Assembly: GCA_001873565.1 (NCBI GenBank)
Contig: MNZJ01000018.1
Coordinates: 1 to 33,334 of the forward strand
Direction: 5' to 3'
Origin: Candidatus Peregrinibacteria bacterium CG2_30_44_17
GTDB taxonomy: Bacteria; Patescibacteriota; Gracilibacteria; UBA1369; UBA12470
DNA length: 33,334 bases
Part shown: positions 8,046-31,560 of the stretch, piece by piece
Layout of the letters: each line of letters opens with the position of its first letter
How positions within the stretch are numbered: position 1 is the first letter of the stretch
The notes under the pieces: model-generated
Databases searched by the model: none
Seen by the model: only the letters and a program-made list of their open reading frames with translations
Told to the model about the DNA's origin: nothing
Program-made: the position numbers and the translations under genes

Positions 8046-10433
8046 TTATTCCGACGTCACTGTGATCTCCAGTTCGTAAGTGTCTTTGACGCCACCTGCG
8101 TCTTCGACCTCGAGTTCGACTGTGTATATGCCCACCTCATCGAAAGTATGAGTCGGTTTGCGGTCGTAACTCTTGTCTCCATCGCCGAAATCCCATACAT
8201 AACTCTGGATTGAACCTCCGCTACAAAGCGGGTCAAAAGCTACGATAAGCGGCGCCTTGCCCTGCTCCAAGCTCGCTTCGAAACAAGCAGTGAGTGTTAC
8301 AGGCCTTACCGTGATTGTTATAGAGTCTGAGTCTTCGGAATTGTCGTCTGCAAGGACCGTAACAGTTGCTGTAAATGTCCCTACCGTGTCGTATTCGTAA
8401 GTTACTTCCGCTCCACCGACATACTCGTCAGAACCGTCTCCAAAATCCCAAGTGTAAGCCACTATTTCTCCGTCGGGATATGTTGATCCGGCCGCGCTAA
8501 ACTCTACCTCCATCGGGACTTCTCCCGACGTTGGAGTGACCGTAAGTGCGGCATCCAAGGCCTGACCAGAAACGCTAATTGCTATTGTTTCCGTGTTCGT
8601 ATTTCCATCCGCGTCTATGACTGTTAATGAGGCTATGTATGCGCCGGTTTTTTCGTATGTGTATGTGACTTTTTCGCCTGTGTCATCGGTATCGCCGTTG
8701 CCATCGAAATCCCATTCGTAATCAACGATATTGTCGTCCGCATCAACACTGCTTGAGGCGTCAAAAATGACTTCTAGTGGAACTTCTCCTTCTACCACTC
8801 CGGTCGACGAGTTAGCTTCCGGATCTGTCATAATTACGGCTACGGGTTTTTCCGATGCGCCAATGACTGTTATTTCAATTTTTGTTTTACCAGTTTCACC
8901 GACTTCGTCCTCAACTTCCAATGTGATCAGATAATTACCGGCTTCTTCGTAAGTGTGTTTCGCCGTTCTGGTTTTTACATCATTGCTGCCATCACCAAAA
9001 TCCCATGTGTATTTCGTAATCTCCCCGTTTATCGACTCGGAATCGGCCGCCGAGAACGAATATGAAACTCCAGTATAATACTCGTCATTATCACTGCCTA
9101 TTACTGCAACGACGTCGACGCCACCGGCTGCTATGTCCATTGTTACAACGTTGTAATCTCCATTATTGTCAGTGACTCTGAGAGACACCTCGTATGTCCC
9201 GGCTTGCTCATATGTGTACTCCGCCGTCACGTCTTCTCCATCATCGAATTTGCCGTCTCCGTCGAGATCCCATTCGTAAGAGACTATCTCTCCATCAGGA
9301 TCGACACTGCCAGAAGCATCAAACTCTACGGTTAGCGGTATATCTCCTTTTTCCTGATCTACGGTGAAGCTTGCCGCCACCTTGTCATTACTGAATATTA
9401 CGTCCAAAATGATCTGTTCCGTTGCTTCTTCACCTGTTTCGACATCTTCATAAGTGACAGTCAGAACAACTTCGTATCTGCCGGCATCCGGACCTTTTGT
9501 CGTATATCTATGGCTTACTGTCTCGCCTGTTGCCGTAGAGCCATCTCCAAAATCCCACTCGAAAGATATCAGTTTGTATTGATACGGGTTGAACGGTATT
9601 TGAGATGCATCGAACGTGATTGTCGCAGGTGCTGTTAGGTTAGATAAATCTTCCGGATCTGTCTTGATAATCGAAGTATCTTGCGCCGTCTGAGTTTCCA
9701 CCTGTTGCGAACTTAGATACATGTATGTAAAAGTCCACGCAAAGGCCAATATGACAAATAGCGAACCTCCAAGGATTGCCATCATAATGCCTTTGTTTTT
9801 ACCAGCCTTATCGTCTTTCTTGGTCATTGATACTTTGAAGAGGCCTATGATTCCTACTATGAAAGTTACGAATATCGTCATTCCAAATATGACGTTGGTA
9901 AGTGTTATCAAGAATGGGTAAAAATTCTCCTCTGAAATCCCAAACATCTTAAGGAGAGGATTGTCAGCCCCACCTCCTTGAGTCAAAAGCAGAAATATCA
10001 TCACTATAATAAGTACAAACACTATTCCACCCGTGACAATTCCGGCTGTTATAGCTTTTTTCTTCTTTGCTCTTTTCTTTTTCTCTTGCAATGCTTTCTT
10101 CTGTTCCGGCGTCAGTGCTTGTTCCGGTGTCTTGGGCGCTGGCGCGACTGCAGGTTGAGCTGCAGGAGCTGGCTGAGGCGTCGTGACTACTACCGGAGTA
10201 GGTGCAGGTGCAGGCGTTGATTGTGGTGTCGGAGCCGATGCAGGTGCTACTGCAGGAGCTGGCGTGACTACCTGCGGCTGCTGTTGCTGCTTGGCTATTT
10301 CGGCAGCTTTTGCAACATCCTCCTTATGTTCTTCTACTGTTTTTTCGTTTATATAAATTTTAGGCTGCTCACCTCCCGGATTCGGAGGAGTCTGAGGGAT
10401 TTGATTCCCATTATTTTGCGTATTTTCATCCAT
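8046..10433 (-). CDS. Membrane protein with six extracellular PKD domains
   Basis: This 795-residue protein has a cytoplasmic N-terminus of about 125 residues rich in Pro, Ala, Gln and Thr (runs such as TPAPAVAPASAPTPQ), ending in a basic patch (KKKRAKKKK). Three membrane helices follow (about 127-152, 170-195 and 215-238); the loop between the last two is strongly positive, which places the rest outside. The outer part has six PKD repeats, marked by the WDFGDG-type motifs FEWDFGDGS, YEWDLDGDG, YTWDFGDGS, YEWDFDGNG, YTWDFGDGS and YVWDFGDGD. No peptidase or glycosidase domain is seen. It is the last gene of the minus-strand envelope cluster, separated from the 1591-residue PKD gene by a structured repeat. 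It is probably a surface adhesin or spacer; its function is unknown. Confidence 0.85.
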   Translation of the reverse strand: MDENTQNNGNQIPQTPPNPGGEQPKIYINEKTVEEHKEDVAKAAEIAKQQQQPQVVTPAPAVAPASAPTPQSTPAPAPTPVVVTTPQPAPAAQPAVAPAPKTPEQALTPEQKKALQEKKKRAKKKKAITAGIVTGGIVFVLIIVMIFLLLTQGGGADNPLLKMFGISEENFYPFLITLTNVIFGMTIFVTFIVGIIGLFKVSMTKKDDKAGKNKGIMMAILGGSLFVILAFAWTFTYMYLSSQQVETQTAQDTSIIKTDPEDLSNLTAPATITFDASQIPFNPYQYKLISFEWDFGDGSTATGETVSHRYTTKGPDAGRYEVVLTVTYEDVETGEEATEQIILDVIFSNDKVAASFTVDQEKGDIPLTVEFDASGSVDPDGEIVSYEWDLDGDGKFDDGEDVTAEYTYEQAGTYEVSLRVTDNNGDYNVVTMDIAAGGVDVVAVIGSDNDEYYTGVSYSFSAADSESINGEITKYTWDFGDGSNDVKTRTAKHTYEEAGNYLITLEVEDEVGETGKTKIEITVIGASEKPVAVIMTDPEANSSTGVVEGEVPLEVIFDASSSVDADDNIVDYEWDFDGNGDTDDTGEKVTYTYEKTGAYIASLTVIDADGNTNTETIAISVSGQALDAALTVTPTSGEVPMEVEFSAAGSTYPDGEIVAYTWDFGDGSDEYVGGAEVTYEYDTVGTFTATVTVLADDNSEDSDSITITVRPVTLTACFEASLEQGKAPLIVAFDPLCSGGSIQSYVWDFGDGDKSYDRKPTHTFDEVGIYTVELEVEDAGGVKDTYELEITVTSE

Positions 10434-10718: not shown

Positions 10719-13700
10719 TTAGTTTATCTTCCTCACAGTGTAAATGCTAGCCCCCAAAAGTGCAAATGCAGTGGCAACCATAATAAGAACAAGTCCTTGA
10801 GCACTTGATACGGGGAATAAGTTCGCTGCCCCCGAACTATCGAATACTACTTCTTTTGTAACGGAATAAGAGCTTCCTGTATCGCTTTCTGCAGTAAGCA
10901 TCATCACTACAAGGCCCCATGATGATTCATAAGAAACATCTTTGAAAGTTCCGCTTAAACATGTCGTATCCTCGAGGTCATGATCATTGTCTCTCACGCC
11001 ATCGCCGTCGGTATCAAAATATACGTTTTTATCAAGCCAACAGGTGATACCTGCGCCGCTATCAAGATTGGTAGAGTACGAAATGTCTATTTTCCCCGAA
11101 GATCCGGTTATATGAATTTTTTCATCGCTTGGGCTTGGCTCAGGATTAGTCGTCAAATAAGCTATTACGTCAACTACAGGCTCTTCTAAGTCTATATCGT
11201 TAGTTACAGAGTCTTCCTTGTTCATGGAGTCCATGACTGTTAATCCCACTGTATATGAACCGTAATCGTCGTACTCATAACTTGGCTCATTACTGACGGA
11301 GTCCGTGTCGTTTGCCGGATCACCATCTCCATCCGAGTCAACTAGCGTATCGAAATCCCAAGAGTAAGATGTTATGACTATATAGTCTTCCGCTACAGAT
11401 GAATTATCTGCGAAAGACACTTCTAACCCCTCTGATTCCGATGTGAATGCCGCTGTTGGCGGATCCGTATCTGCAACTAATATAGATTGCTCAACGCTAT
11501 CTGATTGTCCCGCTGAGTCGTATATGACCAAACTAACCTTGTACGTTCCCTCTATGTCGTAAGTGTGAGATGGATTTTGCTCTTTTGAATCAGCATCATC
11601 GCCTGCATCGCCGTTTCCATCCGAGTCCACTAACGTGTCGAAATCCCAATACACAGCGTATAAATCAGCTCCATTAGCTTCGTCTGTTGTTGATTGGTTT
11701 GTGAAATCAACATCGAAACCTCTGACGTCGTAAACAAATGCCGCCTCGGGACCTTGAGCTGTCGATTCCACACAAAGCTGTATCTTCTTATCCGAAGTCG
11801 TAGACTGTCCCTTCTCGTCAGCAACTTTTAGCCTTATGTCGTAGCATCCTACAGCCTTAGGTTCGTACACATATGTTGCATCTGCCGTTTCTGTGTTGTC
11901 GCTGAAACCATCGCCTTCCAAATCCCAAATGTATGCCAAATCGTCACCATCAGGGTCATACGAGCTACTTGATAACGTGACCGTATCTCCCAGCATTATA
12001 ATAGTATCACTTAGGCTGAAGTCCGCCACAGGGGCTTCGTTTTCGCCATTCTCTACCGTTATGGTAGGATCTTCATCAAGCTCGTCACGACTCGACACTG
12101 TGTTTCCCGCTTTGTCTGTGACTTCCACTGCTATTGCATACTCTTTTTCATCTCCTGTGCTGCCATTGGTACCTATAGTCAATGTTGCCGAAGATGTTGT
12201 CGTGATTTGAGCACCCAGTTTTTCACTGGTTTTGCCAGTATCGTAATAATACCAGTAATAGTTGGCGATACTTCCATCCGGGTCCTGTGCGTCCACTTCC
12301 ACCTTCACATCAACCGGTGTTACGTTTGAATCAGACTTGATACTATAAGTCAGAGAGTCAATCTCCGGTGGTTCTTCTGCGACTACGATCTCAAAAGTGT
12401 CTTCCGAGTTGATTGACGGATCGTCTTTATCGCTGACTGTTAGCGTGACTTTATAGGTTCCAAGTTCGTCGTATGTATGACGCGCCGTTTTCTCCGTGCT
12501 AAGAGTTTTGTCTCCAAAATCCCAGCTGTATTTCAAGTCTCTTGAAGTACCGTTTGTATTTTGAGATCCACTCGCGTCGAACGTGAAGACCGTTGTAATA
12601 TTGCCTTCAATATTGAGGCTGCTTACCGGCATGCCGTCTTTTTCAAGAGATATGACTGCAATAGTCGAATTGCTGTCTCCTATATATACCTTCTTTGTAT
12701 AAGTGTTTTCGTTATCGTCATCATCGTATACGGTAAGCTCAACGTTGTATGTGCCTGTCTCCGTATATGTGTGGTAAAAAGTTTTTGATGAAGAACCTTC
12801 CTGTGCTTCGTCTTCGCCATCACCGTAATCCATGACGTATGCAACAGCATTATCGCTTGATCCTGTGAAAGACACTTCCACGCTACCCGCTTCGTCATCT
12901 AGCTGATGAGCCGCTCCGCTTGGCATTTCCAGCAGCACATCCAGCACGGAATAGACCATAATGTCACTGCTTGTTTCGCCGGTTTGTTTCAAATCTTCAT
13001 CTTCGTACTGATCACTGACTTGAAGCGTTACATTGTGACTTCCAGCTTCATAAAATTTCACTATTGGAGACTCTGACGTTTCGTCTGTTCCTTCTGCGAA
13101 TTCGTAATCGCTGCCCTCTGTTCCGTCAAATGTCCAAAGATAGGACAGTGTGTCCCCTTCGTCAGGGTCATAGCTGTTTCCTCCGTCGAAATGGACTGTG
13201 CCTGGCTGTGAGTCGTCCGGTATAGAATAATCGAATTTAGCGATGGGAGTTTGAGATTCGACAGTTATGTCTATCGTGTCCGTATCCTGATTGCCGGAAC
13301 TGTCTGTAACCGTCAGAGACACCGTGTAGACTCCAGGTTCGTCAAAGTTGGAACTCAAATCTTCGGTCGATCCCAAATCTATGCTCTTGCCGGTAGCTGA
13401 CACGGCCGACCACATATAAGCTGTAATCGCTCCTATGTCTGTCTTTGACGCAGATCCATCGAATGAGAACACTGTCTCAGGAGTTCCTGACCAGAATTGA
13501 GATTCAATCCTGGCTGCAGGCGATGCTATTACTATAGTGCCTACATATCTATCAGTAGTGCCTGTAACATCTGTCACTTCCGCTTTAAGCGTATAACTTC
13601 CTTCCCCAGGATATGTACAAATTTCTTCGATCAAGCTTTCGCTTGTATAACTCTCCACACCATTTCCACAATCAAGTGTGTGATAGACAGTAGGATCTCC

Positions 13701-15494
13701 ATTGCCGTCAGTTGTGCCAGCCATCGAAATAGTTATACCGGTTGTTCCTTCCGCCTCAGTGAATTTAGCAGTGGACTCAATTATATTTTCTTCGTAATTC
13801 GCCAATACAACCGTGCTTGAACTTGCGTAAGCTTTCAAAACTATGTTCGACTCCGGAGGATTGACAACTATGCTTATATAAGCCTGTCCAGGTGCGACAT
13901 CAGGATCCTGACTGTATACCCTTAGTCCGACCCTGTATGTTCCTACATCATAATAAGTCTTACTTACCGAGGCTCCTTCTGATTCATACTTGCCATCACC
14001 ATCAAGGTCCCAAGTGTACTGAGAAGAGTCTATCGTCAGATCGCTTGGATCGTAAGAGTCCAAACCGTCGAAGCTTACTATTAGAGGTGAACTGCCTTCT
14101 TTCACGCTTGCTGTAATGACGGTATCCACAAATTCAAGATTCTCGACAAGGGAATACAGGGTCCCCAGATCCGTAATGACATCTCTAAGTACGGAGTTTG
14201 CGAGGAATAATCCGGTAATGAGATCTCCTAGTTTGGAGTCTTCCAGGAATGACTTGTTGGCATCCCAATCCAGACGGCTTACTCCATCCGTACCGAAATA
14301 CCCAAGTACCGTATCGATTTGGTCATCTATTGTCTTGAGAGTTGATCCTCCGTCCTTAACCGCTGCCTGTGATCCAGTCGCATCAAATAGTGTCTTATAT
14401 GACGTCAGAGTTGCCCCGTATTCATCCAGTTTTTCATTAAAATCTATACTTGCCGCTTTCGCAACGCTTTTGAGACCCATTTTGATGTCTTTTTGCAGAG
14501 TATCAAAGTCACCATATTCATAACGGTCCGCATAGGCCACCGGTATAAGCCAGTTATGATTATTGTCAGAATACATGACACCCCATCTCGCATCATATAA
14601 TATTTTTTCAGTATATGCCTTCAAGTCTGATGCAGCTTGATATGTGTCACTATTCCTATCGACCATGTCCATTATTTCCTGTGCGACACTATCTATAATT
14701 TCCACATATTCTCTTACTAAAGCAACTTTCTCCTGATCAATTGATTCATCAGCATCATAATCGTCTTTATCAAACAGACTGAACATGTCTTTAACAGGCT
14801 CAGTATCAGGTGTTTCAAAAGACCAAGCATATTCTATATAAGCATGGACATTGGAATACGTTGTAAATGCAGCGATATATTCTGTCGCCATATCCTGTAA
14901 ATCTTTTGCGATTTGATTGACGTTGTATACATCAACCTGGTCACCTGTTACTTCGTCGCCGGATGAGTAGACGGATCCTTCTCCACGGTCTTCCCCTCCA
15001 CCTGCAGCATCGCTGAGTAGAGTGTTGACTATTGCGTATGATGAAAGCACAACCAAGATACCAATTACTGCGTACATAACTGACTTCTTGCCTTTTGTCG
15101 TCTGTTCTTCTTGTCCTCCCGCAGTTACATAAAGGAAACCTCCGTAAATGATTACAACTATAGCTGCAATTCCAAGGAATGACAGAGCGAAGTTTGTTAC
15201 ATTGAGAATATACTCACGTGCCGTCTTGGCCTTTGTAAGTCCCGAATCGTAACCTTCCGAACTTGGTGCTTCGAAAGATCCTTCAAACTCTGTGAAGCTT
15301 GTGATGTCTCCAGAGTCTTCACAACTCAGAATACCACCTGTGGACTCCTCCATCCCTTCACACAGCGAGTCTTCCACTCCATCCGGAACAAGATCGATCG
15401 CTATGTCCGCGGCTGACGCAAGAGGGATCATGCACATTACCGCAGCCATTACGCCGATTAGCATTACAGCCAGTTTTTTTTGTATTAGCATCAT
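10719..15494 (-). CDS. Giant surface protein: pilin-like module plus about ten PKD-like repeats
   Basis: This 1591-residue protein starts with a signal peptide (about 1-28, ending LASA-AD). A two-helix module follows (about 93-155: NVTNFALSFLGIAAIVVIIY, loop AGGQEEQTTKGKK, second helix ending AIVNTLL) that matches the modules in the two upstream genes. Residues about 185-460 are helical. The rest is a chain of PKD-like beta repeats, some canonical (YTWDLDGDG, YSWDFGDK, YIWDLEGDG, YWDFDTLVDSDGNGD, YSWDFDTLVDSDGDGD) and some degenerate, with Asp-rich calcium-type loops. A C-terminal helix (SAQGLVLIMVATAFALLGAS) and a basic tail anchor the end. The gene has its own promoter, overlapping a terminator. 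It is likely a long membrane-anchored surface fibre or adhesin. Confidence 0.85.
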   Translation of the reverse strand: MMLIQKKLAVMLIGVMAAVMCMIPLASAADIAIDLVPDGVEDSLCEGMEESTGGILSCEDSGDITSFTEFEGSFEAPSSEGYDSGLTKAKTAREYILNVTNFALSFLGIAAIVVIIYGGFLYVTAGGQEEQTTKGKKSVMYAVIGILVVLSSYAIVNTLLSDAAGGGEDRGEGSVYSSGDEVTGDQVDVYNVNQIAKDLQDMATEYIAAFTTYSNVHAYIEYAWSFETPDTEPVKDMFSLFDKDDYDADESIDQEKVALVREYVEIIDSVAQEIMDMVDRNSDTYQAASDLKAYTEKILYDARWGVMYSDNNHNWLIPVAYADRYEYGDFDTLQKDIKMGLKSVAKAASIDFNEKLDEYGATLTSYKTLFDATGSQAAVKDGGSTLKTIDDQIDTVLGYFGTDGVSRLDWDANKSFLEDSKLGDLITGLFLANSVLRDVITDLGTLYSLVENLEFVDTVITASVKEGSSPLIVSFDGLDSYDPSDLTIDSSQYTWDLDGDGKYESEGASVSKTYYDVGTYRVGLRVYSQDPDVAPGQAYISIVVNPPESNIVLKAYASSSTVVLANYEENIIESTAKFTEAEGTTGITISMAGTTDGNGDPTVYHTLDCGNGVESYTSESLIEEICTYPGEGSYTLKAEVTDVTGTTDRYVGTIVIASPAARIESQFWSGTPETVFSFDGSASKTDIGAITAYMWSAVSATGKSIDLGSTEDLSSNFDEPGVYTVSLTVTDSSGNQDTDTIDITVESQTPIAKFDYSIPDDSQPGTVHFDGGNSYDPDEGDTLSYLWTFDGTEGSDYEFAEGTDETSESPIVKFYEAGSHNVTLQVSDQYEDEDLKQTGETSSDIMVYSVLDVLLEMPSGAAHQLDDEAGSVEVSFTGSSDNAVAYVMDYGDGEDEAQEGSSSKTFYHTYTETGTYNVELTVYDDDDNENTYTKKVYIGDSNSTIAVISLEKDGMPVSSLNIEGNITTVFTFDASGSQNTNGTSRDLKYSWDFGDKTLSTEKTARHTYDELGTYKVTLTVSDKDDPSINSEDTFEIVVAEEPPEIDSLTYSIKSDSNVTPVDVKVEVDAQDPDGSIANYYWYYYDTGKTSEKLGAQITTTSSATLTIGTNGSTGDEKEYAIAVEVTDKAGNTVSSRDELDEDPTITVENGENEAPVADFSLSDTIIMLGDTVTLSSSSYDPDGDDLAYIWDLEGDGFSDNTETADATYVYEPKAVGCYDIRLKVADEKGQSTTSDKKIQLCVESTAQGPEAAFVYDVRGFDVDFTNQSTTDEANGADLYAVYWDFDTLVDSDGNGDAGDDADSKEQNPSHTYDIEGTYKVSLVIYDSAGQSDSVEQSILVADTDPPTAAFTSESEGLEVSFADNSSVAEDYIVITSYSWDFDTLVDSDGDGDPANDTDSVSNEPSYEYDDYGSYTVGLTVMDSMNKEDSVTNDIDLEEPVVDVIAYLTTNPEPSPSDEKIHITGSSGKIDISYSTNLDSGAGITCWLDKNVYFDTDGDGVRDNDHDLEDTTCLSGTFKDVSYESSWGLVVMMLTAESDTGSSYSVTKEVVFDSSGAANLFPVSSAQGLVLIMVATAFALLGASIYTVRKIN

Positions 15495-28755: not shown

Positions 28756-29355
28756 TCATATCATCTCCTCGCCAAATTCTTTAAACATTTGATAAAGTTT
28801 GCACATCGGCAGACCCACCACGTTATCGTAATTTCCATCTATTTTTTTAATAAAAAGTGACCCCAGACCCTGTATTGCGAATGCTGCGGCTTTATCCATG
28901 GACTCACCCGACTCTAAATATCTATCTATCTCGCCTGGGCTCATTTTTGCGAATTTGACCAAAGTTTTTTCCGCATGCGATTTTTTGCGCTCTATTCCTC
29001 CATTCTCGTCTGTAGACACAACGCATATGGCTGAGATAACCTCGTGAGTTGTTCCATTGAGAATCTGCAAAATACGCTTTGCATCGGCGATGTCTTTTGG
29101 CTTACCAAGTATGTGGTGCTGATAAGCACCGATCGTGTCCACACCAAGTATGTATGCGTTGGCATGTTTTTTTGCAATTTCATGAGCTTTTCCCTCCGCA
29201 TTGTGTATTGCTACTACCTCCGGCGTCAGGTCTTCCGAACCTAATATCTCTTCAAATTCTGTTGCCGGATCTATGCTGAACTTAAGACCAGCTTCTTCTA
29301 ATAATTGTTTCCTCCGTGGGCTCCGTGATGCGAGAATCAGCTGTTTGCACAACAT
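28756..29355 (-). CDS. maf: Maf-type nucleoside triphosphate pyrophosphatase
   Basis: Maf enzymes hydrolyse non-canonical or pyrimidine NTPs (dTTP/UTP or m5UTP types). The start chosen at 29355 (MLCKQLILASRSPRRKQLLE) gives 199 residues, the family length; an in-frame ATG at 29418 would add a 21-residue hydrophobic stretch. Signatures are LASRSPRRKQLLEEAG, AEGKAHEIAKKHANAYILGV with DT following, and ILGKPKDIADAKRILQILNG, then SGESMDKAAAFAIQGLGSLF. The start overlaps the C-terminal 74 bases of the upstream cohesin gene in another frame, so translation may be coupled. Confidence 0.92.
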   Translation of the reverse strand: MLCKQLILASRSPRRKQLLEEAGLKFSIDPATEFEEILGSEDLTPEVVAIHNAEGKAHEIAKKHANAYILGVDTIGAYQHHILGKPKDIADAKRILQILNGTTHEVISAICVVSTDENGGIERKKSHAEKTLVKFAKMSPGEIDRYLESGESMDKAAAFAIQGLGSLFIKKIDGNYDNVVGLPMCKLYQMFKEFGEEMI

Positions 29356-30073
29356 GGCGATATTTTTTATGTATTCGCCAAGCAATATAACAGATGGCAG
29401 ACAGCAGAGAAAGCACACTTAATACAATCACTGATCCACCAACAGTAAATATGTTCGCCATAATGGTATCTGCGACGTTACCATCCTTTACACTAGTCAT
29501 TCCAAAACCCCTACTCTCCTGCATGATGGGATCTGCCAGTTGTTCCGTGGTTATCATGTCTACGTTATAAGCGGTCATTGAGACTTCTGTATTCACCCAT
29601 TCAATACTTGTGAGATCTTCACGTTCTCCATACTCATTAATCATTGCTATTATTGGGTTTTTGAATTCAAGTTCCGTGTCTTCATTCCCATAAATATCAA
29701 AATCCAAAGCAATGATGGTGCCACTTGCATCAACCTCCCTATCCGATCTTCGCAGAGTTATTCCAACTATGACTCTGCCTCCACGATGATCTATGTCGTA
29801 TGTTACCAGATATATGGGCTCTCCACCCTGTTCGAAAAAAGCTCCCACATCATAAGAGTCATAAGACAGTACCGTTGGATCGTATTCAAGTTCAAATGCC
29901 ATTCCTATAACAGGCTGAGTTATACTGTCTGCCTCTATGACTGCAGTTAGTTTCGTTTCTGATTGATATGTCGATATTATTATCTGATCCACCGACGCAT
30001 AAGCTTCTGCCGATATCGCAAGTAGTATTACGCATATCGCGCATATCATTATGAGTTTTATCCATGTTTTCAT
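29282..30073 (-). CDS. Membrane-anchored cohesin-domain protein
   Basis: This 263-residue protein has a signal peptide (about 1-26, IKLIMICAICVILLAISAEA), a cohesin-like beta domain (about 30-175) and a C-terminal membrane helix (about 203-230, VIVLSVLSLLSAICYIAW) with a basic cytoplasmic tail. Cohesin features are IGMAFELEYDPTVLSYDSYD ('xxFxlxYDPxxLxy'), GGRVIVGITL and ASGTIIALDFDI. Cohesins bind dockerins, and the gene directly upstream (30145-31560) encodes a dockerin at its C-terminus. The 3' end overlaps maf by 74 bases. Binding between the two proteins is an inference. Confidence 0.8.
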   Translation of the reverse strand: MKTWIKLIMICAICVILLAISAEAYASVDQIIISTYQSETKLTAVIEADSITQPVIGMAFELEYDPTVLSYDSYDVGAFFEQGGEPIYLVTYDIDHRGGRVIVGITLRRSDREVDASGTIIALDFDIYGNEDTELEFKNPIIAMINEYGEREDLTSIEWVNTEVSMTAYNVDMITTEQLADPIMQESRGFGMTSVKDGNVADTIMANIFTVGGSVIVLSVLSLLSAICYIAWRIHKKYRHVVQTADSRITEPTEETIIRRSWS

Positions 30074-30088
30074 ACTTTTATATGTTTA

Positions 30089-30131
30089 GGGAGGAGGCCT
30101 GGATTGGCTTTGCGAATAAGAGACCTCCCCC
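30089..30131 (-). other. GC-rich hairpin between the dockerin and cohesin genes
   Basis: On the minus strand GGGGGAGG (30131-30124) pairs with CCTCCTCC (near 30097-30090), with one G-U pair. No T-run follows, so it is not a clear terminator. It could be a stabilising or attenuating mRNA hairpin in the 71-base gap of this operon. Confidence 0.5.
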
Positions 30132-30144
30132 AGCTAAAAATTAT

Positions 30145-31560
30145 TTATTCGTACGTTAGCGCCCAATTGACTCCTAAATCTATCAAATCGCTTCCGTCAA
30201 TACCGCCATCATATGTCGTGTCTATCAGCACATCGTACTCTTCATCTGCATACGTTTCGCCATAATGCTTGGCTATGTTTTCGAGGTCACGTCCATCGAC
30301 TCTATCGGATCTGTTGTTGTCCCCTTTTATGCCACGCGTATCTGACCCTGTGACTACCAGACCTTCACTCTCCACACCATCGTCTATTGTAATAATTTGG
30401 TAGTAATATGTATTACTTGGGATGACATATAGGCTGTCTGTATAAGTTGTCTCGGCTATCTCATCCAGCTCCTCGTAATCACCAGCAGAGTTCATTCGCA
30501 AAACCCTATAACTATCGGCTCCGCTTACCGCATCCCATGTTAAGACGATGGAATATCTTTCCTCGCTCTCTACGGCGATTGCGTTGCCAACCTGAGCCAC
30601 GCTATAGGAGGAAGACGATCCAATACCTGTATTCTCAAAATCGGCCTCAATATCTGCATTTACGCTAGCTATAAAACTATTCGCACTTACGATATTGATT
30701 TCTGCGCTTCCGCTACTCGTTACAAGAAACTCTATTGTGAACAATGTCCCATCTCCATTCACCCCCGTTTTGTCATCTCCGGTTCTTGCCTCACCTACTA
30801 TGATCGTACCCTCTTCTCCGTTCTCCATCTCCGCATTGAAAGAAGTCGCTACTGATCCTGACTCACTCAGAAAGCTTCCTTGAGTAGCTGCCTGATAAGT
30901 GAGGGCTGCTGTGTCATAATCGATATCAAATCCATACGAGAACAGATCTTCGACGTTACTGATGGATGCTGTCACTTCGACGATGTCTCCAATATTAGGT
31001 TCTGCATCTGAGACTGTTAAGGTTACCTCAGTTCCTGTAGAGCTTTCGCTGACACTGTTGAGACCACGAGGAGTTGATAGACTGCTGTCTGCGCAATCGC
31101 TCCAGTTGTCACTACCGGACTCTGTACTGACGATTCTTTCCATAGACGTCTTCGTGTTGTTGTTACCCGCCGGCCAGGCACCGCCTGATGAGTTCACCGT
31201 ATCTATCGTACTACCGGAGTCGTCAATAAGAGCTAGCGAATCGCCTGAGTTGGCAAGCGACAACCTGATGTCCAAATCCGCATTGGTATCCTTGCCAAGC
31301 ACTAAGTATCCGTTCCCTGAAATCGTTCCTGATAATTCGTATGTAGAGGTGCCATCATCTACGATTGTCCACCCAGCTAAATCTAATGCTTCACTTGTAT
31401 TGTTCTTGAGCTCAATCCATTCTGCTGATGAGTCTTCAGCCGATCCAGCCCAAGCTACCTCGTTGATTACAACATCCAGTGAAGATGCGGCCTTTACCTC
31501 TATTGTGAGATTAGGCATAATCGCTAGCACGAGAAGTAGCATCGAAATGTACTTTTTCAT
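30145..31560 (-). CDS. Secreted protein with lamin-tail, cohesin, FN3 and dockerin domains
   Basis: This 471-residue protein has a signal peptide (1-24, YISMLLLVLAIMPNLTIEVKA). A lamin-tail domain follows (about 28-150: VVINEVAWAGSAEDSSAEWI, ELKNNTSEALDLAGWTI, GYLVLGKD). A cohesin-like domain follows (about 175-325: FSYGFDIDYDTAALTYQAAT, GTIIVGEAR, GTLFTIEFLV). An FN3-like domain spans about 330-405 (IVLTWDAVSGADSYRVLR). A C-terminal dockerin spans about 410-470 with two calcium-loop repeats (GDNNRSDRVDGRDLENIAKHYG and DTTYDGGIDGSDLIDLGVNWA, quoted in part by motif). One chain thus carries both a cohesin and a dockerin. It lies 71 bases upstream of a membrane-anchored cohesin gene, its probable partner. 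No catalytic domain is present. Confidence 0.85.
   Translation of the reverse strand: MKKYISMLLLVLAIMPNLTIEVKAASSLDVVINEVAWAGSAEDSSAEWIELKNNTSEALDLAGWTIVDDGTSTYELSGTISGNGYLVLGKDTNADLDIRLSLANSGDSLALIDDSGSTIDTVNSSGGAWPAGNNNTKTSMERIVSTESGSDNWSDCADSSLSTPRGLNSVSESSTGTEVTLTVSDAEPNIGDIVEVTASISNVEDLFSYGFDIDYDTAALTYQAATQGSFLSESGSVATSFNAEMENGEEGTIIVGEARTGDDKTGVNGDGTLFTIEFLVTSSGSAEINIVSANSFIASVNADIEADFENTGIGSSSSYSVAQVGNAIAVESEERYSIVLTWDAVSGADSYRVLRMNSAGDYEELDEIAETTYTDSLYVIPSNTYYYQIITIDDGVESEGLVVTGSDTRGIKGDNNRSDRVDGRDLENIAKHYGETYADEEYDVLIDTTYDGGIDGSDLIDLGVNWALTYE

Follow-up and report, generated by a model that had tools for sequence, protein, structure and literature searches.

In the clostridial cellulosome, an anchored cohesin takes the dockerin of a secreted scaffold. 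In Archaeoglobus fulgidus, AF2375 and AF2376 (structure 2XDH) are adjacent genes providing two cohesins and one dockerin with no cellulase. Archaeal versions of the cohesin-dockerin pair have been verified as strong binders, and the non-cellulosomal system of ANME comprises many dockerin proteins, proteins with dockerin plus cohesins, and at most five cohesins per protein (PMC9012536). In freshwater Planctomycetes, the hypothetical planctosome is described as combining the lamin tail domain (LTD), cohesin and dockerin without cellulose degradation; an LTD lies in a 2,210-aa anchoring protein as a proposed tether, an adaptor bears both dockerin and cohesin, and peptidases dock (PMC6461901). Cloacimonadota possess a non-cellulosomal cohesin-dockerin system with enzymes (PMC8542988), and in Omnitrophota cohesin and dockerin occur in giant proteins (PMC10066038). 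Large extracellular proteins of Peribacteria may serve attachment (PMC4736985). In the epibiont Southlakia epibionticum, the dockerin-domain protein SEML1_0315 is essential; this patescibacterial cell-envelope protein is proposed for host-glycan contact, and in the main text of its paper neither "cohesin" nor "lamin" occurs (PMC10633639).

The window, that is the whole stretch of 33,334 nucleotides analysed here (contig C37), belongs to a Peregrinibacteria-type Patescibacterium with a 1.17 Mb genome (1,170,047 bases, 51 contigs, 97.29% complete), in agreement with the small-genome bacterium assumed by an earlier, sequence-only reading. It contains a cassette of two genes, A and B. As in the clostridial cellulosome, an anchored cohesin would take the dockerin of a secreted protein; in contrast to it, A and B are free of carbohydrate-active domains, and a multi-cohesin scaffoldin is missing, the three cohesin-like matches of the genome lying in three different frames. 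The A. fulgidus layout recurs in that a cohesin-only gene adjoins a cohesin-plus-dockerin gene (56/56 genomes), one protein unites cohesin and dockerin, and the arrangement is non-cellulosomal; 2XDH is also among the structure and profile matches of the cassette cohesins. Compared with A. fulgidus, the cassette adds an LTD and a fibronectin type III (Fn3) domain, a membrane-anchored second cohesin, and conservation across a bacterial class. The planctosome is likewise similar in its adaptor with both dockerin and cohesin (PMC6461901), whereas here it is the LTD protein that bears the dockerin, a separate transmembrane cohesin serves as anchor, and no second dockerin protein is found in the genome. 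The cassette shares with ANME the non-cellulosomal character and the combination of dockerin and cohesin in one protein, but holds a single dockerin per genome (PMC9012536). SEML1_0315, likened by its description, may provide an indirect parallel for attachment (PMC10633639). A cellulosome was considered and is ruled out, because no second dockerin was found in the genome and neither A nor B has an enzyme domain. In the open-licence literature on cohesin or dockerin in Peregrinibacteria, Peribacteria, Patescibacteria and candidate phyla, no description of the cassette was recognised, nor in that on the LTD with cohesin or dockerin. Non-cellulosomal cohesin-dockerin systems are already known; the minimal enzyme-free set of one dockerin and two cohesins is a new version of them.

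On the minus strand, gene A is followed by a 71-base gap and by gene B, whose end is overlapped by a maf gene (Table 1); the Maf-like gene is a neighbour only, outside the cassette. The sequence-only reading had placed a membrane-anchored cohesin next to a secreted dockerin/cohesin/LTD protein, and both open reading frames are present at these positions. From N- to C-terminus, gene A encodes a hydrophobic segment, LTD, cohesin, Fn3 and dockerin, and gene B a hydrophobic segment, cohesin, transmembrane (TM) helix and positive tail. The LTD, cohesin and dockerin of gene A had been named before, while Fn3, the stem-loop between the genes and the conservation of the cassette across the class had been missed; the proposal that neither protein is enzymatic is upheld by Pfam. 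The closest named records of the 471-aa protein derive from Candidatus Peregrinibacteria RIFOXYA2_FULL_41_18 and GW2011_GWF2_43_17, with 58% identity in the top segment. Elsewhere in the window, two large PKD-repeat proteins are adjacent (10719-15494 and 8046-10433, both minus strand). The larger, of 1,591 aa, scores 38.0 bits against the T4SS_pilin profile (cut-off 26.6) and is an unusual fusion of a pilin-like segment with PKD repeats.

Table 1. Predicted features of the two-gene cassette and its neighbour in the window
Feature	Position	Strand	Evidence
Gene A (P0002), 471 aa	30145..31560	-	ORF; Pfam; orthologs in 57/353 class genomes
Gene A, N-terminal signal-peptide-like hydrophobic segment, about residues 1-25	31486..31560	-	Hydropathy
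Gene A, lamin tail domain, residues 24-123	31192..31491	-	PF00932 62.8 bits; 23/23 orthologs
Gene A, cohesin, residues 179-308	30637..31026	-	PF00963 47.6 bits; 23/23 orthologs
Gene A, Fn3 domain, about residues 336-398	30367..30555	-	phmmer, PF00041, AF2
Gene A, C-terminal dockerin, residues 409-470, two Ca-loop repeats	30151..30336	-	Family profile; loop acids
Stem-loop between gene A and gene B	30090..30131	-	Folding of gap
Gene B (P0001), 263 aa, membrane-anchored cohesin	29282..30073	-	ORF; PF00963 24.6 bits; model matches cohesins
Gene B, cohesin, residues 38-132	29678..29962	-	Pfam
Gene B, C-terminal TM helix, about residues 212-232, then positive tail	29378..29440	-	Hydropathy, charge, model helix
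Maf-like gene, overlapping gene B 3' end	28756..29418	-	PF02545 184.5 bits

In gene A, the LTD (62.8 bits against a Pfam cut-off of 34.3) and the cohesin (47.6 against 24.1) are clear calls at the level of profiles, and the family profile of the cohesin matches 3l8q (E 3.5e-10). The LTD points to no specific function. The Fn3 domain matches 3mpc by phmmer (E 1.5e-5), is recognised by PF00041 in 15 of the 23 orthologs, and forms the best portion of the AF2 model (pLDDT 75-88). As a whole this model, built from the window, L005 and L028 sequences, has a mean pLDDT of 45.3; outside Fn3 it is unusable and gives no cohesin-dockerin geometry to work with. The putative dockerin of the window lies below the PF00404 cut-off (13.7 against 22.9 bits, E 0.096), and PF00404 matches 11/23 orthologs at E<=1, the best at 7.5e-4. 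The 19-row family profile, in turn, matches the solved cellulosomal dockerin 2y3n_B (E 2.3e-6, positions 3-61 of 62), and the EF-hand-like loop acids D414, D419, D425 and D447, D451, D458 are invariant in 23/23 aligned orthologs. The dockerin call is thus clear at the family level and weak alone, and to this extent the dockerin of the sequence-only reading is supported. Another LTD protein, carrying a pair of LTDs and a hydrophobic segment at its C-terminus, is encoded by a 451-aa frame on the minus strand of L170 (C42 of the same genome).

The cohesin of gene B barely exceeds its cut-off (24.6 against 24.1 bits), and PF00963 matches it in 15/23 relatives at E<=1. The gene B model is modest overall (pLDDT 57.9, pTM 0.46); its cohesin core is mostly at pLDDT 69-83, with a weaker stretch around residues 83-98. 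All 50 of the 50 PDB matches listed by Foldseek for this model are cohesins or cohesin-containing complexes (best E 4.2e-7). Both cohesin calls made earlier hold. By profile comparison (probability 93, E 3.3e-7), the A and B cohesins are remotely related. Mean pairwise identity is 0.588 for the dockerin, 0.575 for the LTD and 0.324 for the gene-B cohesin; the dockerin is conserved to the same degree as the LTD head, and both are the best conserved parts.

At E<=1e-3, the dockerin profile has exactly one match in each of 58 class genomes out of 353. Full-length gene-A orthologs account for 57 of these matches, and the one in G267 is a 1,400-aa cysteine-rich protein. Directly downstream of gene A, a cohesin/TM gene lies on the same strand in all 56 testable genomes (gene-B profile E<=8e-13); G306, where the contig ends, is left out of this count, and an 89-aa frame listed inside the A-B gap of G012 is taken as spurious. 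The gene-B profile was built from 23 of the 56 (20 found by similarity to P0001, and G018, G029 and G043 by position), and 33 of the linked genomes are independent of it. The linkage spans nine families in two orders (f1, f2, f6, f8, f9, f10, f11 and f14 in the order of the host, f32 in another), and the cassette was not found in other families among the 353 genomes. In a phylum sample of 379 genomes, 21 match the dockerin profile, and outside the class only weak matches in other kinds of protein were obtained. Among 59 relatives, 26 have the dockerin and 29 a cohesin match: cohesins occur in 26/26 of the dockerin-bearing genomes versus 3/33 of those without it, namely G051 and G055 (weak) and G054, whose gene-A ortholog is cut by the contig end. 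One extra cohesin-like match is located elsewhere in 6 of the 26, in frames of 435-1,309 aa. Chance domain calls are ruled out by the family profiles, the structure match and the gene linkage.

The sequence-only reading had proposed a search for further dockerins, and none is found in the host genome at 97.29% completeness. The strict 56/56 linkage and the count of one dockerin to two cohesins fit a dedicated pair, and we consider it reasonably probable, at roughly 0.6, that A and B constitute a dedicated enzyme-free surface-display pair. The third cohesin-like match of the host genome, a sub-threshold one of about 18.8-22.1 bits in an SLH protein, is a possible other partner of the dockerin and counts against this reading. 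The candidate partners seen for the single dockerin are the two cassette cohesins and the SLH cohesin, apart from any encoded in sequence absent from the assembly or by other organisms. Close to the C-terminus of the SLH protein (799 aa, L082:1645-4044, C17 of the same genome), an apparent HELLH zinc-peptidase motif was recognised by eye. In 15 genomes, which all belong to f2 or f8 (including L092:9547-11307 and L087:3424-5193), gene B is followed by a DUF3352 lipoprotein; it was dropped as a third part, since its relatives in the window genome sit on other contigs. Other arrangements were seen besides the cassette. Four f120 genomes (G517, G561, G527 and G553; L175, L178, L179 and L180) each encode a single dockerin protein, about 290 aa long and with a hydrophobic segment at its N-terminus, and have two adjoining small cohesin genes at a separate site. 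In G512 (L181/L189), a secreted-looking 257-aa protein with a dockerin at its end is encoded directly upstream of a cohesin-containing frame, and G036 (L123) has a dockerin protein resembling it.

Between gene A and gene B, the 71-base gap (30074-30144) folds into a stem-loop with a dG of -21.5 kcal/mol and a z of -3.2. Over the 75 bases past the gene-A stop, z<-3 is reached in 40/56 genomes, compared with 14/171 other co-directional gaps below 200 bases (0+0+14 of 27+48+96, taken from cassette loci and three further loci), a comparison whose significance is overstated by the relatedness of the genomes. Convergent gaps of 30-200 bases reach z<-3 in 15/39. The stem sequences vary freely among the genomes; it therefore seems to be the structure, not the sequence, that is kept. 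A tract of at least five T within 9 bases follows the strong hairpin in only 8/34 cases, an undercount from a scan of even window lengths in 51/56 genomes, and a terminator pattern scan of the window locus found none. On these two grounds a canonical terminator is not favoured; since the T-rich stretch is mostly absent, a role in RNA stability or attenuation is more likely than full termination. In the mal operon of E. coli, a stem-loop between genes sets the protein ratio. Similarly, it is plausible that the stem-loop raises the secreted gene A product above its anchor B.

Distance correlations were calculated over 53 of the 56 pairs (G032, G045 and G291 were left out, gene A being cut or split), and partial correlations of domain distance were obtained with the remaining three domains controlled. 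The ortholog on C121 of G045 is split by an in-frame TAG. The partial r is 0.305 for dockerin/A-cohesin, 0.252 for dockerin/B-cohesin and 0.343 for A-cohesin/B-cohesin, and it is near zero for dockerin/LTD (0.026) and Fn3/B-cohesin (0.004). The other values are 0.308 for LTD/Fn3, 0.233 for LTD/B-cohesin, 0.223 for A-cohesin/Fn3, 0.177 for Fn3/dockerin and 0.161 for LTD/A-cohesin. This pattern is consistent with a dockerin touching both cohesins, yet it is not specific. With the top partial correlation of the dockerin belonging to its own cohesin, and with both domains on one chain, the A dockerin might mainly bind the A cohesin, within one molecule or between molecules, giving closed monomers or soluble polymers with B as a cap or competitor. 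We regard this as unlikely, because it leaves the membrane cohesin gene that follows A in every testable genome unexplained.

By simple hydropathy, a membrane segment is predicted in 56/56 gene-B proteins: at both ends in 34 (33 by script, and G010 reassigned on visual inspection, its listed start lying too far upstream), at the N-terminus only in seven (families f8 and f10), and at the C-terminus only in 15 (12/12 of f2, plus G293, G296 and G284). In the window, the anchor postulated earlier is borne out by a C-terminal helix in both hydropathy and model. Past the C-terminal helix, 48/49 proteins have a tail of net positive charge, as expected for a C-in/N-out orientation, and the cohesin is accordingly predicted outside. 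Two observations count against surface display: the 15/56 gene-B proteins with a C-terminal segment alone lack a recognisable signal peptide, so that export of their cohesin is presumed, and the gene-B cohesin diverges fast, although the receptor of a conserved dockerin might be constrained. B could instead be a membrane assembly or quality-control factor for the export of A and no lasting surface receptor, as suggested by the missing signal peptide throughout f2, the rapid evolution of gene B and the variation in its anchoring, and a stem-loop that points to less B than A; the N-terminal hydrophobic segment in 41/56 gene-B proteins and the outside cohesin predicted from the positive tails argue against such a factor, and we know of no chaperone with a cohesin fold, which makes it distinctly improbable. 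Least probable is a reading without mutual binding, in which the dockerin-like doublet serves only as a structural unit that binds calcium and the cohesins as ordinary adhesion domains of the beta-sandwich type, as the sub-threshold PF00404 match and cohesin folds outside cohesin-dockerin pairs (reportedly in TMEM132) would allow, against the co-occurrence of dockerin and cohesins across the relatives, their one-to-one gene linkage and a dockerin as conserved as the LTD.

The domains, the gene linkage, the membrane segments and the stem-loop are confirmed as observations. In the surface-display pair, gene A would be secreted, and its dockerin, predicted to be calcium-dependent, would plug into the gene B cohesin, which would be held in the cytoplasmic membrane by the C-terminal helix (N-terminal in some families), with the LTD head of gene A pointing outward. 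Such A-to-B binding is likely, judging from domain content and linkage. Furthermore, the free A cohesin would accept the dockerin of another A to form short anchored chains, a plausible kind of growth, with more A than B set by the stem-loop. That the LTD adheres to a host cell or a polymer is no more than conjecture. More doubtful is a self-extending enzyme-free fibre, in which A would join head-to-tail, be seeded on B, take its length from the A:B ratio fixed by the stem-loop, and attach to host or polymer through repeated LTD heads.

Little is settled on how Patescibacteria grip other cells, and testable predictions exist for few of the parts concerned. The cassette consists of two genes, strictly paired and calcium-dependent by prediction, whose soluble domains are directly testable. 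If the display reading is true, the cohesin-dockerin principle would extend to a minimal device for display or adhesion, encoded by a genome that shows no sign of a cellulosome.
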